Shown: one piece after another, positions 13,649-24,631 of the stretch
How positions within the stretch are numbered: position 1 is the first letter of the stretch
Layout: the number at the start of each line of letters is the position of its first letter
Source: Thermoleophilia bacterium
GTDB lineage: Bacteria; Actinomycetota; Thermoleophilia; Gaiellales; Gaiellaceae
Reading direction: 5' to 3'
Assembly (NCBI GenBank): GCA_025930955.1
Contig: JAICNY010000006.1
Span: 1 to 37,048 of the forward strand
Length of the DNA stretch: 37,048 bases
The notes under the pieces: generated by a model
Told to the model about the DNA's origin: nothing
Database searches by the model: none
Seen by the model: only the letters and a program-made list of their open reading frames with translations
Translations under genes and position numbers: made by a program

Positions 13649-15559
13649 TTACGGGAGGATCTCCAAGGCCGGTTCCTCCGCGGGGGCGTCGTCGAGGAGG
13701 CCGAGCAGGAACGCCTCCTCCTCGGGCGTGAGCACCAGCCCGCCGATGCCGCCCTCGCCGGCCGCGTTGTCCTCGTAGCTCACGCTCGCCCAGGATGCGT
13801 TCGCCCACGACGCCGCCGCCTCGGCCGTGTTTGCCCACGAGGCCGACGCCCAGGACGCCGAGGCCCACGAGGCCGCCGCCCAGGAGGCGTTCGCCCAGGA
13901 CGCGCTCGCCCACGAGGCGCTGGCCCAGGACGCGCTCGCCCACGAGGCGCTCGCCCAGGAGGCGTTGGCCCAGGAGGCGTTCGCCCACGAGGCGTTCGCC
14001 CAGGAGGCCGACGCCCACGACGCGTCCTCCTTCGCAACGTGCGCCCAGCTCGCCGAGTCGAAGACGAGGTCGCCCGAGCCGGCCGGGTCCGAGACGAGGA
14101 ACGCGTTCAGCGCGAGGTTCGGGTTCGGCGGATCCTTGACCGCCGCGGCCTTGTCCGCCGAGACGAAGCCGACACCCACCGACCCGAAGTCGGCCGATGG
14201 CATGTGCGTCGCCGTCAGCATGAGGGCGCCCTTGACCTGGTCGGGCGTCCACGTCGGGTTCCGGGCCAGGATGTACGCCGCCATCCCCGAGACGAGCGGG
14301 GCCGCGAACGAGGTGCCCGAGAGCTCGATGTAGCCGGCCGCGCGGAGCTGCTCGGGCCGCTCGAGCGCGAGCGTCGAGGTCGCCGGCACCGGCCCGATCA
14401 TGTAGCGGCCGGGAGCCCCGACCTCGGGCTTCAGGAAGCCGTCGAGCGTGTAACCGTACGCCGACCACGGAGCCGAGCCGTCGTCCTTCACGTTCAGCTT
14501 CTCGCCGAGGTCGAGGGCGCCGACCGTGATGATGAACGGGTCGTTGCCCGGGGCGAAGGGAACGCCCGAGGGCGCATTCGCGACGCCGTAGTTGCCCGAG
14601 GCCGCGACGACGACCACGCCGGCGAACCAGAGCCGCTCGACCGCCTTCGAGAGCGGGTCGTACATGAAGCTGTTGGGCACCGACGAGTGGAGCGAGAAGT
14701 TCGCGACCCGGATGTCGTACGCGCGCCGGTTCGCATGGATCCAGTCGGCGGCCGCGATGACGTCGCTCGTCATCGCCATGCCCTTGTCGTCCATCACGTC
14801 GAGCGAGACGACCGGAGCGGACGGCGCCGCTCCGGCGTAGCCGGGAGCGCTCCCCGCCGCGATGCCCGCGACGAACGTGCCGTGGCCACGACCGTCGCCG
14901 GGCGAGTTCCCCGCGAGCGAGGTCATCGTCTTCTCGACGATCACGCGCCCGCCGAAGTCGTTCCGGCTCGAGTCGATGCCCGAGTCGACGACGGCGATCG
15001 CCGGCATCGTGCCCGCGGTCCCGTTCGCCATCGACGGCCAGACCTTCGCCAGGCCGGTGGCGAGGGGCCAGAGCTGCTTGTTCGAGTAGTTCGAGAGCTC
15101 GACCGGGGCGTCAGGCGTGATCGCGTAGACGCCGCGCCGGTCGGCGAGCCGCAGGATCTGCTTTCCGCTCAGCGTGACCGCGACCGCGGACACCGTGTCG
15201 AACTCGTCCTTGATCCGCGAGCGCACCCGCGCCTGACCAGTCGCGGTGCCGCCGCCTTCGCGGACGATCATCCCCGCGAGCGCCGCGCTCGGCATGGTGC
15301 CGTCGCTCTGCACGATGACGTCGAAGAGGCGGTCGCCGTTCGCCTCCGCACGCTCGAGAAGCGTCGGAGTGACGTACGCCTCGTGGTCCTTGCCCGACGC
15401 GTCGGCGACGCCGGCGAGGGGGCCCGCCAGCATGACGAGGCCCGCGACGAGCGCCGCCGCGAACCCGCGCCGACCGAGCTTCCGACCCTCACGGGAGCCG
15501 GAGCGCTTGCCCCAGAGGGCGCTCGAGCGCACGTCGTTCCGGTTGGTGTCTCTCCGCAT
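13649..15559 (-). CDS. Secreted S8 (subtilisin-like) protease with ASWAx repeat tail
   Basis: This 636-residue protein begins with an Arg-rich segment containing SSALWGKRSG, then a hydrophobic signal at about 31-52, an inhibitor-I9-like propeptide (about 60-150) and a subtilase domain. The catalytic triad is Asp192 (VVDSG), His226 (GHGT) and Ser417 (GTSFAAP), with oxyanion Asn323 (SGN). After the catalytic domain come about 15 pentapeptides ASWA(S/N/A) (residues 513-591) and an acidic tail ending LEILP. The serine protease should act outside the cell, and the Trp-rich tail may bind the wall, a partner or itself. The ATG follows a GAAGGACGG-type ribosome binding site. A palindrome, CCCCGAACGGGG, about 95 bp upstream may be an operator. 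Confidence 0.9.
   Translation of the reverse strand: MRRDTNRNDVRSSALWGKRSGSREGRKLGRRGFAAALVAGLVMLAGPLAGVADASGKDHEAYVTPTLLERAEANGDRLFDVIVQSDGTMPSAALAGMIVREGGGTATGQARVRSRIKDEFDTVSAVAVTLSGKQILRLADRRGVYAITPDAPVELSNYSNKQLWPLATGLAKVWPSMANGTAGTMPAIAVVDSGIDSSRNDFGGRVIVEKTMTSLAGNSPGDGRGHGTFVAGIAAGSAPGYAGAAPSAPVVSLDVMDDKGMAMTSDVIAAADWIHANRRAYDIRVANFSLHSSVPNSFMYDPLSKAVERLWFAGVVVVAASGNYGVANAPSGVPFAPGNDPFIITVGALDLGEKLNVKDDGSAPWSAYGYTLDGFLKPEVGAPGRYMIGPVPATSTLALERPEQLRAAGYIELSGTSFAAPLVSGMAAYILARNPTWTPDQVKGALMLTATHMPSADFGSVGVGFVSADKAAAVKDPPNPNLALNAFLVSDPAGSGDLVFDSASWAHVAKEDASWASASWANASWANASWANASWASASWASASWASASWASASWANASWAAASWASASWASASWANTAEAAASWANASWASVSYEDNAAGEGGIGGLVLTPEEEAFLLGLLDDAPAEEPALEILP
13787..14023 (-). 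repeat. 15-bp tandem repeat encoding ASWAx pentapeptides
   Basis: Inside the S8 protease, imperfect 15-bp units encode Ala-Ser-Trp-Ala-(Ser/Asn/Ala) about 15 times, interrupted once by TAEAA. A degenerate unit, SASWAHVAKED, precedes the array. Third-base differences between units show it is an established protein repeat and not a fresh expansion. Confidence 0.9.
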
Positions 15560-20919: not shown

Positions 20920-21452
20920 ATCAGGTCACCCAGACCCGCCTGCCGGGCGTCGGGACGAAGTTCTCGATCCCGACGTCGCACGGCGGCCGGCTCGCCGTCA
21001 TCCAGCACAACGACGGCATGCGCGAGATCTACTTCTTCCAGCGCCGCGACGACGACGAGCCGTGCGCGGTCATCCAGCTCGAGGACGACGAGGCCCGCCA
21101 GCTCGGCGCGGTGATCGGCGGCGCGTACGAGCGGCCGCGCATCGTCGAGGAGCTCGAGATGGCCTTCGGCGAGCTCGCGATCGAGTGGGTCCCGGTGCCG
21201 CAGGGCAGCCCGGCGATCGGCCACTCGCTCGCCGAGTGCGCCTTCCGCGCCCGGACGGGGATCACGATCATCGCCATCCTTCGCGAGCCGGAGCCGGTCA
21301 CGGGCGCACAGCCCGGCGACGTGATCAAGGAGGGCGACACGCTCGTGACGGTGGGAAAGCTCGGGCAGTACGCCGCGTTCCGAAAGCTCCTCGCCGACGG
21401 CCCCTTCCCGGCCCCGAACCAGGAGCCGACCCACATCCCGAAGAGGCTTTAG
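20916..21452 (+). CDS. khtT: KhtT-like antiporter regulatory subunit (RCK_C/TrkA-C)
   Basis: This cytoplasmic 178-residue protein has an N-terminal domain (TRLPGVGTKFSIPTSHGGRL) and a C-terminal RCK_C/TrkA-C domain (roughly 90-165) with GHSLAECAFRARTGITIIAI and GDVIKEGDTLVTVGK. In KhtT this domain binds nucleotide and controls the antiporter. The GTG start overlaps the khtU stop (GTGA), so production is coupled. The end overlaps the convergent trkA stop by 4 bp. Confidence 0.88.
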   Translation: MNQVTQTRLPGVGTKFSIPTSHGGRLAVIQHNDGMREIYFFQRRDDDEPCAVIQLEDDEARQLGAVIGGAYERPRIVEELEMAFGELAIEWVPVPQGSPAIGHSLAECAFRARTGITIIAILREPEPVTGAQPGDVIKEGDTLVTVGKLGQYAAFRKLLADGPFPAPNQEPTHIPKRL

Positions 21453-22786
21453 AGGACCTTCTCGACGTTCGCGACGCGCGACGACTCCGTGAAGATGATC
21501 GCGCGGTCCCCCGGCAGGAGCACGTCCTCGCCGTGCGGGAAGATCGCCTCGCCGTCGCGGACGATCGCGCCGATCAGCGAGCCGGTCATCGGGAGCTCGC
21601 GGAAGGGGATCCCGCAGAGCTCGCTCTCCTCCCGGACGGTGATGTCGAGAACCTCGAACCGGTCGCCCTCGAGCATCGCGAGCTGGCGGATGCGCGGGTC
21701 GTGCGCGAAGCGCACCATCTCCTCGGCCGTCACGGAGCGCGGGTTCACCGCCGCGTCGACGCCGGCGCGGTCGAAGACGAGCTCGGCGCCCGGCTCGTGG
21801 ACGATCGCGACCGTGAACGCGACGGAATGGAGCTTCGCGAGCGTCGCCGCGTAGAGGTTCTTCGCGTCCTCGCGCATGGCGAAGACGGCGGCCTGCGAGC
21901 GGCCGATCCGCTCCCGCTCGAGAAACTCGGGGTCGACCCCGGTCGCATGGAAGACCGAGACGCCGGGCAGCGCCTCGGCCACCTCGCGCGCCCGCTCTCC
22001 GTCGGCCTCGATCAGGCGGACGCCGATTCCCTGGTCGGTGAGCGTCCGCGCGACCTCGAAGCCGGTCTGGCCCCCGCCGAAGACGACGACGTCGTCCACG
22101 ACCGCAGTCCGGCCGCGCAGCATCAGCCGGCTCCACTCCCTGGCCGCCTCCGGCGAGCCGATGATCACGACCCGGTCGCCCCGGAGAACGGCCTCGTCCC
22201 CGCGTGGGACGAGCACGCTGTCGCCTCGGATGATCGCGGCCACCTTCGACTCGTCCGGGATTCGCGCCTCACGGAGCGGGCGGCCGATCACCTCGCCGTC
22301 GTCCCCGCCGGGCTCCACCTCGACGTCCAGCTCGATCATCTGGACGAGGCCGTCCGCGAAGACGTCCGTCTGCCGCGCGGCGGGCACGCCGACGAGCCGG
22401 GCGATCGCGTGCGCCGCCTCGAGCTCCGAGCAGACCATGAAGTCGATCTCGAGCTCCCGCTCGCGCCAGATCTCGAGGTACTCGACGTTCGTCGTCCGGA
22501 CGATCGTCCGGATGTTCGGCCCGAGCTTCTTCGCGAACATCGAGGCGACGATGTTCACCTCGTCGCGCGAGGTGCACGCGAGGAGCAGGTCGCCCTTGTC
22601 GACGCCCGCCTCGCGCAGCGCGCGCCGCGAGGCGCCGTTCCCCTGGACGGTCACGACGTCGAAGCGATGCGCGACCGCCTGGAGCCGTCCCCCGTCCACG
22701 TCGAGCACGACCACGTCGTGCTCCTCGTAGAGCGCCTCGACGACCGCCGTGCCGACCTGCCCGGCGCCGACGACGAAGATCTTCAC
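21449..22786 (-). CDS. trkA: Trk potassium uptake regulator TrkA
   Basis: TrkA is the cytoplasmic gating ring of Trk/Ktr potassium channels. This full-length 445-residue version has two RCK_N/RCK_C units: the first nucleotide loop is VGAGQVG (about 6-12) with LDVDGGR, and the second is FGGGQTG (near 240) with LIEADGER. TrkA-C domains follow each (GEVIGRPLREARIPDESKVAAIIR and ESELCGIPFRELPMTGSLIGAIV regions). The GTG start is 10 nt past the stop of the candidate selenoprotein. A TAGGCT box (22794-22799, minus strand) overlaps that stop and is 7 nt from the start, so it may be expressed both by read-through and from its own leaderless promoter. Confidence 0.93.
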   Translation of the reverse strand: MKIFVVGAGQVGTAVVEALYEEHDVVVLDVDGGRLQAVAHRFDVVTVQGNGASRRALREAGVDKGDLLLACTSRDEVNIVASMFAKKLGPNIRTIVRTTNVEYLEIWRERELEIDFMVCSELEAAHAIARLVGVPAARQTDVFADGLVQMIELDVEVEPGGDDGEVIGRPLREARIPDESKVAAIIRGDSVLVPRGDEAVLRGDRVVIIGSPEAAREWSRLMLRGRTAVVDDVVVFGGGQTGFEVARTLTDQGIGVRLIEADGERAREVAEALPGVSVFHATGVDPEFLERERIGRSQAAVFAMREDAKNLYAATLAKLHSVAFTVAIVHEPGAELVFDRAGVDAAVNPRSVTAEEMVRFAHDPRIRQLAMLEGDRFEVLDITVREESELCGIPFRELPMTGSLIGAIVRDGEAIFPHGEDVLLPGDRAIIFTESSRVANVEKVL

Positions 22787-22796
22787 GGCCGGGAGC

Positions 22797-23342
22797 CTAT
22801 TCGTCCCAGTCCGGCTCGGGCCCGATGCCGACCGCCTCGGCGATCCGGTTGATGTAGTTGAAGAACGCGATCACCTGGATCGCGTCGTGGATCGCCTCGT
22901 CGGACAGGCCGTGGCCGCGGAGCCGGTCGATCTCCACCTCGCCGACCGCGGCCGGCTCGAGCGTCAGGTCGACGGCGAAGTCGCAGAGCGCGCGGAGACG
23001 GGCGTCGAGCGGCGCGCGGCGGTAGTCGTGGGAGACGTGCTCGGCAAGCTTGTCGTCTGCGCCCTCGGCACGGAGGTCGTCGGCATGCGCCCGCGTTCAG
23101 TAGTGGCAGTCGTTCGCCGACGAGACGACGACGGCGAGGAGCTCGCGCTCGGCGCGCGAGAGCTCGCACCGGCCGAACATGACCGCCTTGTAAAGCCCCA
23201 TCGCCTCGCGCAGGACGGGCGGGCGCAGGCTCATCGCCTTGACGATGTTGAAGACCTTGCCGGCCCGCCCGATCGCCTCGTCGTATTCGACGCGGAGCTC
23301 GCCGGTCGCCTCGTCGACGTCGATCAGCCGGAGGTAGGCCAC
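22797..23342 (-). CDS. AhpD-like peroxidase-family selenoprotein (in-frame UGA = Sec82)
   Basis: Read with one in-frame UGA (23097-23099) as selenocysteine, this gives a 181-residue protein of the AhpD/carboxymuconolactone-decarboxylase (peroxidase-related) family ending at TAG. The motif is Cys79-His-Tyr-Sec82-Thr-Arg-Ala-His86, with Glu67 twelve residues before Cys79. This spacing matches the AhpD proton-relay set Glu118-Cys130-Cys133-His137, so Sec takes the place of the peroxidatic cysteine. The frame after the UGA reads as family sequence with no further stop (HADDLRAEGADDKLAEHVS, then LTLEPAAVGEVEIDRLRGHG and QVIAFFNYINRIAEAVG). A possible SECIS hairpin follows the UGA. AhpD-like selenoproteins are known in other bacteria. 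The start is GTG at 23342. A single base error (TGA for TGC/TGT) or a pseudogene are the alternatives. Confidence 0.82.
23059..23090 (-). promoter_or_regulatory. Candidate bacterial SECIS hairpin
   Basis: Downstream of the in-frame UGA, CCUC (23076-23073) and GAGG (23066-23063) pair around the loop CGUGCC. Flanking GCGC (23090-23087) and GCGC (23062-23059) can extend the stem with a bulge on the 5' side. The apical loop begins 25 nt after the UGA, within the usual 16-37 nt range, and has a G near its start, as SelB-binding loops do. The fold is by eye only. Confidence 0.45.
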
Positions 23343-23384: not shown

Positions 23385-23939
23385 ATGCGCCCTCGCAACG
23401 TCACGGTCGTCGGCCAGGGCGACGAGCACGAGCCGCTTCCCGACGAGGGCGTCGTGCGGGTCGAGACGCCCCGCTCCCCGTACGAGGACCTCGGCGCGCG
23501 CATCGCGGGCGTGCTCGCGGCGGCCGAGCAGGCGGCGGCCCAGATGAAGGACGAGGCGGAGACCGAGGCGGAGCAGGTGCGCCGCGAGGCCGACGAGTAC
23601 GCGAAGGAGGTCCGCGCCGCCGTCGAGACGTACGCGAAGGAGCAGCGCCGCCGGGCGGAGGACGAGGCGCGCGCCGCGGTCGCAGCCGCCGACGCCGAGG
23701 CCCGCGCGATGCGCGAGGCCGCCCAGGCGATGGCGGCCCGCCTCGAGGAGGAGGCACGCCGAGGCACCCTCAAGTTCCGCGAGGACACGCGGGCGCTCGA
23801 GGAGCGCCGCCAGCGCGTGCTCGACGAGCTCCGCGAGATCGCGGCGACGCTCGAGGACATCGTGCAGGGCGGCGTGGCCGGCCGGTTCGGCGCGCCGGAG
23901 TCGATCGCGAACGCGCGCTCCCGGCGCCGCTCCCGCTGA
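23385..23939 (+). CDS. Coiled-coil protein, DivIVA-like
   Basis: After a polar N-terminus with VETPRSPYEDLGARIAGVL, this 184-residue protein is one long Ala/Glu/Arg coiled coil (about 45-155), for example EEARRGTLKFREDTRALEER, and a basic tail RSRRRSR. The SPYEDLGARIAGVLAAAEQAA block resembles DivIVA/Wag31-type and ATP-synthase-b-like coiled coils of actinobacteria. A role in polar growth or cell-envelope scaffolding is possible but not shown. A TAGACT box (23370-23375) 9 nt before the ATG suggests a leaderless message, divergent from the selenoprotein with 42 bp between the starts. Confidence 0.72.
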   Translation: MRPRNVTVVGQGDEHEPLPDEGVVRVETPRSPYEDLGARIAGVLAAAEQAAAQMKDEAETEAEQVRREADEYAKEVRAAVETYAKEQRRRAEDEARAAVAAADAEARAMREAAQAMAARLEEEARRGTLKFREDTRALEERRQRVLDELREIAATLEDIVQGGVAGRFGAPESIANARSRRRSR

Positions 23940-23956: not shown

Positions 23957-24631
23957 ATGGGGGTCGGCGCGGTCGTCTTCGACCTCGACGGCGTGATCGT
24001 CGACTCGGAGCACGTGTGGAACGAGGCGCGGATGCGGCTCGCCGAGGAGCGCGGAGGCCTCTGGCACGCCGGAGCCCAGCGGGCGATGATGGGCATGAGC
24101 TCGACCGAGTGGTCGCGCTACATGCACGAGGTGATCGAGCTCCCGGACCCGCCGGAGGAGATCTCCGCGGAGGTCGTGCGGCGGCTGTCCGCGATCTACC
24201 GCGAGGAGCTTCCGCTCATCCCCGGGGCGGTCGAGGCGGTGCGGCGCCTGCGGGCGCGCTTCCGGCTCGGGCTCGCGTCGTCGTCGAACCGCGAGCTGAT
24301 CGACCTCGTGCTCGACCTGGCCGGGATCGCCGAGTGCTTCGAGGCGACCGTCTCCTCCGAGGAGGTGGCCCGCGGGAAGCCGGCGCCGAACGTCTACCTC
24401 GAGGTCGCCCGCCTGCTCGAGCTGCCGCCCGAGGACTGCGCGGCGATCGAGGACTCCGAGAACGGGATCCTGAGCGCCCGCCGCGCCGGCATGCGCGTCG
24501 TCGCCGTCCCGAACCCCCGCTACCCGCCGGGGGATGCGGCGCTCGCGGAGGCGGACGTCGTCGTCCGCTCGCCGGCCGAGCTGACGCTCTCGCTCGTCGG
24601 CTCGATCCCGCCGCGCGAGTGGCGCGGCTGA
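23957..24631 (+). CDS. HAD-superfamily phosphatase (beta-phosphoglucomutase-like)
   Basis: This 224-residue protein is a subfamily-IA HAD hydrolase. Motif I is FDLDGVIVDSE, motif II is ASSSN, motif III is the lysine in GKPAP and motif IV is IEDSENG. A small helical cap follows motif I, as in beta-phosphoglucomutase or phosphoglycolate-phosphatase-like enzymes. The substrate, probably a small sugar phosphate, cannot be assigned. It lies 17 bp after the coiled-coil gene and may be cotranscribed. The ATG at 23957 is the only start that keeps motif I near the N-terminus. Confidence 0.88.
   Translation: MGVGAVVFDLDGVIVDSEHVWNEARMRLAEERGGLWHAGAQRAMMGMSSTEWSRYMHEVIELPDPPEEISAEVVRRLSAIYREELPLIPGAVEAVRRLRARFRLGLASSSNRELIDLVLDLAGIAECFEATVSSEEVARGKPAPNVYLEVARLLELPPEDCAAIEDSENGILSARRAGMRVVAVPNPRYPPGDAALAEADVVVRSPAELTLSLVGSIPPREWRG

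Follow-up and report, generated by a model that had tools for sequence, protein, structure and literature searches.

An in-frame UGA codon in an AhpD-like gene of the TIGR01926 family from a Thermoleophilia bacterium is very probably read as selenocysteine

The window, that is, the whole 37,048-nucleotide stretch of DNA that was analysed, carries on its minus strand a gene for an AhpD-like protein of the TIGR01926 family. Codon 82 of this gene is an in-frame UGA, and on comparative evidence it is very probably decoded as selenocysteine (Sec). The same decoding had been proposed in the first-pass annotation and it holds up well: Cys homologues align at the TGA, selA, selB and selD are present in the genome, and the orthologues keep the TGA. 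TIGR01926 selenoproteins with a CxxU motif have already been catalogued, and the window gene is a further example of this known family. Standard annotation would halve this gene, an error that the analysis corrects. The analysis further brings to light an actinobacterial clade that keeps the TIGR01926 CxxU selenoprotein without a Cys form in its place, and in several genera of the clade the gene sits within a cluster of Sec machinery genes.

Reading frame and conservation of the TGA codon

The coding sequence extends from 23342 to 22797 on the minus strand, with a GTG start codon (23342-23340) and a TAG stop codon (22799-22797). It specifies 181 residues when TGA is translated as a residue, and the sole interruption of the frame is the TGA at 23099-23097 (minus strand, codon 82). 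The first-pass annotation had described this frame with its single TGA without stating the strand; the minus strand is the correct one. Plus-strand translation of 22797-23342 yields a spurious frame and not the AhpD-like protein. The read-through product is VAYLRLID...SRAERELLAVVVSSANDCHYUTRAHADDLRAEGA...INRIAEAVGIGPEPDWDE, followed by TAG. Its motif reads C79-H-Y-U82-T-R-A-H86; E67 lies twelve residues ahead of C79 and H86 four residues past Sec82, in agreement with the Cys-x-x-TGA-x-x-x-His arrangement and the preceding Glu recognised at the first reading. Without read-through, the GTG at 23342 gives an 81-residue product, which is the truncated protein that had been expected from a standard annotation. 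A longer upstream start in the list of open reading frames gives 110 aa and ends at the same TGA.

The read-through translation matches TIGR01926 (peroxidase-related enzyme) with 165.7 bits against a cut-off of 81.8, over residues 3-177 and profile positions 2-177 of 178. It also matches the Pfam family CMD. The claim that one AhpD/CMD protein spans the TGA is borne out by this match. Relatives in the PDB with Cys at the TGA site (2pfx, 6k40 and 3c1l) likewise align on both sides of it. Judged from the sequences, with the end-to-end TIGR01926 match and the in-frame TGA of every orthologue, the read-through frame is far beyond chance.

Orthologues were searched for in 129 genomes of the order. 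The search yielded 17, including the window gene, with 62-77% identity and from at least 10 genera. In the codon alignment TGA occupies the homologous codon in 17/17 and the frame continues across it in all. A check for orthologues that truly stop at this site returned none of the 17. In pairwise comparisons dN/dS stays under 1 both before and after the TGA (for example, 0.26 upstream and 0.28 downstream against L024), and both halves of the gene are under purifying selection.

The alignment with Cys-containing homologues, a check suggested in the first-pass annotation, placed their Cys residues at the TGA position. Four related domain-fused proteins and several paralogues have TGA at the same codon, and other paralogues have TGC. 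Among distant relatives, TGA is found in one Chloroflexota and one Acidobacteriota metagenome-assembled genome (MAG), and TGC in Planctomycetota and Bacteroidota. A contig scan gave two Sec orthologues from MAGs of Actinomycetota; its distant homologues, with Sec or Cys, came from Chloroflexota, Acidobacteriota, Planctomycetota and Bacteroidota. The tree places the 17 orthologues together in a supported group that is Sec throughout; in the rest of the family Sec and Cys exchange, with at least two changes forced. A second TIGR01926 paralogue group is mixed, having both Sec (TGA) and Cys (TGC) members (L046, L049 and L050 versus L044, L045, L048 and L051), and offers a set for studying Sec/Cys exchange.

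Selenocysteine machinery and a predicted SECIS hairpin

The genome assembly is 95% complete, with 2.72 Mb in 259 contigs. The gene selA (501 bits) adjoins selB (343 bits) on contig C64, and selD (346 bits) is on contig C235. A formate dehydrogenase alpha chain (783 bits) is encoded at G000:C56:2035-4056 (L112). Its single TGA falls within EATUHAPTLYGL, and downstream of this TGA is a hairpin with GGUC. The genome of the window thus has a second, textbook selenoprotein.

Of the Sec machinery whose presence the first-pass annotation had proposed to check, the three sel genes were found and tRNA-Sec was not. No tRNA-Sec was detected in the 259 contigs with RF01852, with a covariance model built from the tRNA-Sec of five relatives, or with a pattern search. 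These searches returned only ordinary Ser, Leu, Arg and Gly tRNAs or nothing, and the best match to the Rfam model was a tRNA-Ser whose anticodon, TGA, pairs with UCA codons rather than with UGA. Contig C64 ends 56 nt past selB (G000:C64:4685-4740, L017), and inspection of these 56 nt for the start of a tRNA-Sec gave no clear match. A tRNA-Sec is present in 9/16 relatives carrying the selenoprotein gene; in two relatives (G080 and G039) its start is no more than about 50 nt from where selB ends. The simplest reading is that the missing tRNA-Sec probably lies in an assembly gap after selB. Across the 17 genomes bearing an orthologue, selA was detected in 12, the other five being 73-88% complete. 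One genome with no detected selA (G049) has selB beside the selenoprotein gene.

The RNA downstream of the UGA was analysed for constraint. Only three of the 66 conserved columns of 4- or 6-fold degenerate codons are invariant, namely 90 (Leu CTC), 91 (Arg CGT) and 94 (Gly GGC). All three fall inside the region of a predicted hairpin, in a stretch 17-38 nt past the UGA, and among the Arg codons used by this genome's genes CGT accounts for 4%. For the 17 sequences RNAalifold predicted a single hairpin, CG-a-CCUC(CGUGCN)GAGG-g-CG, with six pairs kept in 17/17. The window copy, CG-a-CCUC(CGUGCC)GAGG-g-CG, lies at 23060-23079 (minus strand), with the apical loop at 23072-23067, beginning 24 nt past the UGA. 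The loop has 6 nt with G second, followed by U, and the stem has 4+2 bp. The published limits for bacterial SECIS elements are a loop of 3-9 nt, G in the first two loop positions, a stem of 4-16 bp, a distance of 16-37 nt from the UGA and a minimum free energy (MFE) of -7.5 kcal/mol or lower (PMC13188914). The loop, stem and spacing fall inside these limits, and the MFE of the window copy, -7.3 kcal/mol, is just short of the threshold; the same hairpin in L034 has -11.6. Some other orthologues' sequences fold alternatively in this region. The hairpin is no more stable than shuffled sequence, and the 71-nt region around and after the UGA, folded whole, showed no stable structure (z +1.85); only the alignment of the 17 sequences brought the hairpin out. 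The pairs never vary, and covariation therefore has nothing to act on as a test. The hairpin, which has the geometry of a bacterial SECIS element, is predicted to direct decoding of UGA-82, a prediction that is weak on folding energy alone.

Other explanations of the TGA were weighed against this evidence. Had a Cys gene recently acquired a nonsense mutation, or been miscalled in sequencing, one base change from TGC or TGT would suffice, and Cys homologues do exist; but the same TGA in 17 independent assemblies makes a base error untenable, and the sharing of the TGA by every orthologue, along with purifying selection past it, renders either form of this explanation extremely improbable. Just as improbable is a true stop, at which standard gene callers would terminate, leaving an 81-residue protein and a downstream part that is a separate or unused frame. 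The 99 downstream residues are conserved and include the catalytic His; single-chain homologues align with them from end to end, and the frame is kept across the TGA in all orthologues. Insertion of another residue (Trp or Cys) through a reassigned code or a suppressor tRNA could be argued from the tRNA-Sec missing in the window assembly, but it is scarcely more credible than a stop. TGA terminates 8/16 other genes checked in this genome and is an ordinary stop there, so the code is not reassigned. The site aligns with a catalytic Cys, the sel genes and a Sec-type formate dehydrogenase are present, and the nearest match to a tRNA-Sec is a tRNA-Ser for UCA. Selenocysteine is thus by far the preferred reading of UGA-82.

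Gene neighbourhood and a related fusion

The trkA gene (21449-22786, minus strand) begins 10 nt past the selenoprotein stop, the distance given in the first-pass annotation, and the same order is seen at L024/L084, L026, L028 and L031. Upstream are a divergent coiled-coil-like hypothetical protein (23385-23939, plus strand), which tblastn also places beside the selenoprotein orthologue in L024, L025, L026, L028 and L035, and an HAD-family hydrolase-like protein (23957-24631, plus strand) from the list of open reading frames, which tblastn places beside the orthologue in L024, L026, L028, L031 and L035; both are conserved neighbours. The window genome shares these flanks with five others (G069, G070, G079, G080 and G039): trkA downstream, where the contig reaches, and the divergent hypothetical protein and HAD hydrolase upstream. 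In seven relatives (G046, G049, G053, G056, G057, G058 and G061) the selenoprotein gene is beside or convergent with selA-selB, and in six genomes (G046, G053, G056, G057, G058 and G060) tRNA-Sec lies 0.9-9 kb from it. PADLOC gave no link to defence. Elsewhere in the window, at 13649-15559 (minus strand), an open reading frame for a subtilisin-like serine protease has a series of ASWA(N/S)ASWA-type repeats at its C-terminal end.

In four relatives a CHYU AhpD domain is followed in frame, at the C-terminus, by an NAD(P)H-hydrate epimerase domain (YjeF_N), at L040:1453-2709 (G029), L043:547-1815 (G084), L041 and L042. The motif of the fusion proteins is CHYU-V, and the TGA is kept in the 4 genomes, which belong to 4 genera. 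The epimerase domain scores 126-140 bits with YjeF_N and about 120 bits with TIGR00197 in the two tested. None of the papers searched links an AhpD-like selenoprotein with NAD(P)H-hydrate epimerase. A more far-reaching and rather unlikely proposal is that the CHYU AhpD-like protein could be a core client of the Sec machinery in this actinobacterial order, with a role in a pathway of Sec-dependent redox chemistry or NAD(P)H repair instead of that of a generic peroxidase, and decoded through a short, low-stability SECIS element with a near-invariant CUC-CGU core. Its gene's place in a cluster with selA-selB and tRNA-Sec in certain genera, together with the sister group fused to NAD(P)H-hydrate epimerase would favour it.

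Active site, likely chemistry and comparison with known systems

An AlphaFold2 model was built from eight sequences; its mean pLDDT is 79, with a core above 90 and a poor N-terminus. It superimposes on 2pfx, 3c1l, 6k40, 2prr and 2oyo with TM scores of about 0.78-0.83. The site Glu-x11-Cys-x-Tyr-Cys/Sec-x3-His is present as E67, C79, Y81, U82 and H86. The Glu, both Cys/Sec positions and the His are invariant in 8 homologues from five phyla, and position 81 is Tyr or Phe. In Pseudomonas PA0269 a relay of Glu36, Cys48, Tyr50, Cys51 and His55 has been described, and this protein reduces H2O2 weakly (PMC3141380). The spacing of Glu67, Cys79, Tyr81, Sec82 and His86 is that of the PA0269 relay and also that of Mycobacterium tuberculosis AhpD.

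In the proposed mechanism, ribosomes with SelB and Sec-tRNA-Sec would decode UGA-82 as selenocysteine, directed by the hairpin about 24 nt downstream. Sec82 would occupy the second Cys position of the CxxC site in an all-helical fold, with Glu67, Tyr81 and His86 as the proton relay and Cys79 as the resolving thiol. The selenolate at Sec82 would be oxidised by a peroxide or disulfide substrate; attack by Cys79 would then give a Se-S bond, and the enzyme would be regenerated by a thiol or dithiol reductant of the cell. The protein may serve as a small peroxidase or as the reductant of a partner peroxidase. Since the Glu, Cys, Tyr, Cys/Sec and His of the active site correspond to those of solved AhpD-like proteins, Sec-based peroxide or disulfide chemistry is likely, and reduction of a peroxide or of a partner disulfide appears, with modest confidence, to be the best assignment. 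The selenium-dependent peroxidase that the first-pass annotation had put forward is inferred from family and active site, and members of TIGR01926 are mostly uncharacterised.

A selenoprotein that does not reduce peroxides but, for example, reduces a partner disulfide, carries out reductive dehalogenation or has a regulatory role like that of sestrins is a possibility of somewhat less than even weight. The AhpD fold includes adaptor reductases for AhpC (PMC3141380) and is shared by the debrominase Bmp8 and the sestrins, in keeping with the fold matches and a weak match of the read-through protein to Pfam PA26; the neighbours trkA and HAD suggest no peroxide pathway. Against these stand the relay residues, which are those of AhpD-like proteins that reduce H2O2 weakly. 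The compact genes of this clade (181 aa, with invariant SECIS codons) would be convenient for testing the function of AhpD-like selenoenzymes.

The closest known system is the AhpD-like selenoprotein family (TIGR01926, CxxU), listed among high-confidence predicted selenoprotein families in a 2026 review (PMC13188914, Table 1). Its first appearance was in the Sargasso Sea set (PMC1088965), and the earlier study cited by the review appears to be that survey. The window protein shares with it the HMM family, the CxxU motif and Sec at the second catalytic Cys, and differs in belonging to an Actinomycetota clade with CHYU and in adjoining trkA here and selA-selB in relatives. With NF041238 (AhpD_rel_CFYUT, alkylhydroperoxidase-related (seleno)protein) it shares a CxYU active site and the AhpD domain; that model has 357 positions, and at 70 bits the window protein is far under its cut-off of 175 and is not a member. 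The Cys-containing TIGR01926-like structures (2pfx, 3c1l, 6k40, 2oyo and 2prr) share the fold, the Glu/Cys/Tyr/Cys/His site and 32-39% identity, but carry Cys where the window protein has Sec. Classical AhpD (TIGR00777) is matched with 24.9 bits, below its cut-off of 191.95. M. tuberculosis AhpD (Cys130/Cys133, Glu118, His132 and His137; PMC3141380) has the same Glu, CxxC and His spacing, whereas the window protein has Tyr at the position of His132 and its gene has no ahpC beside it.
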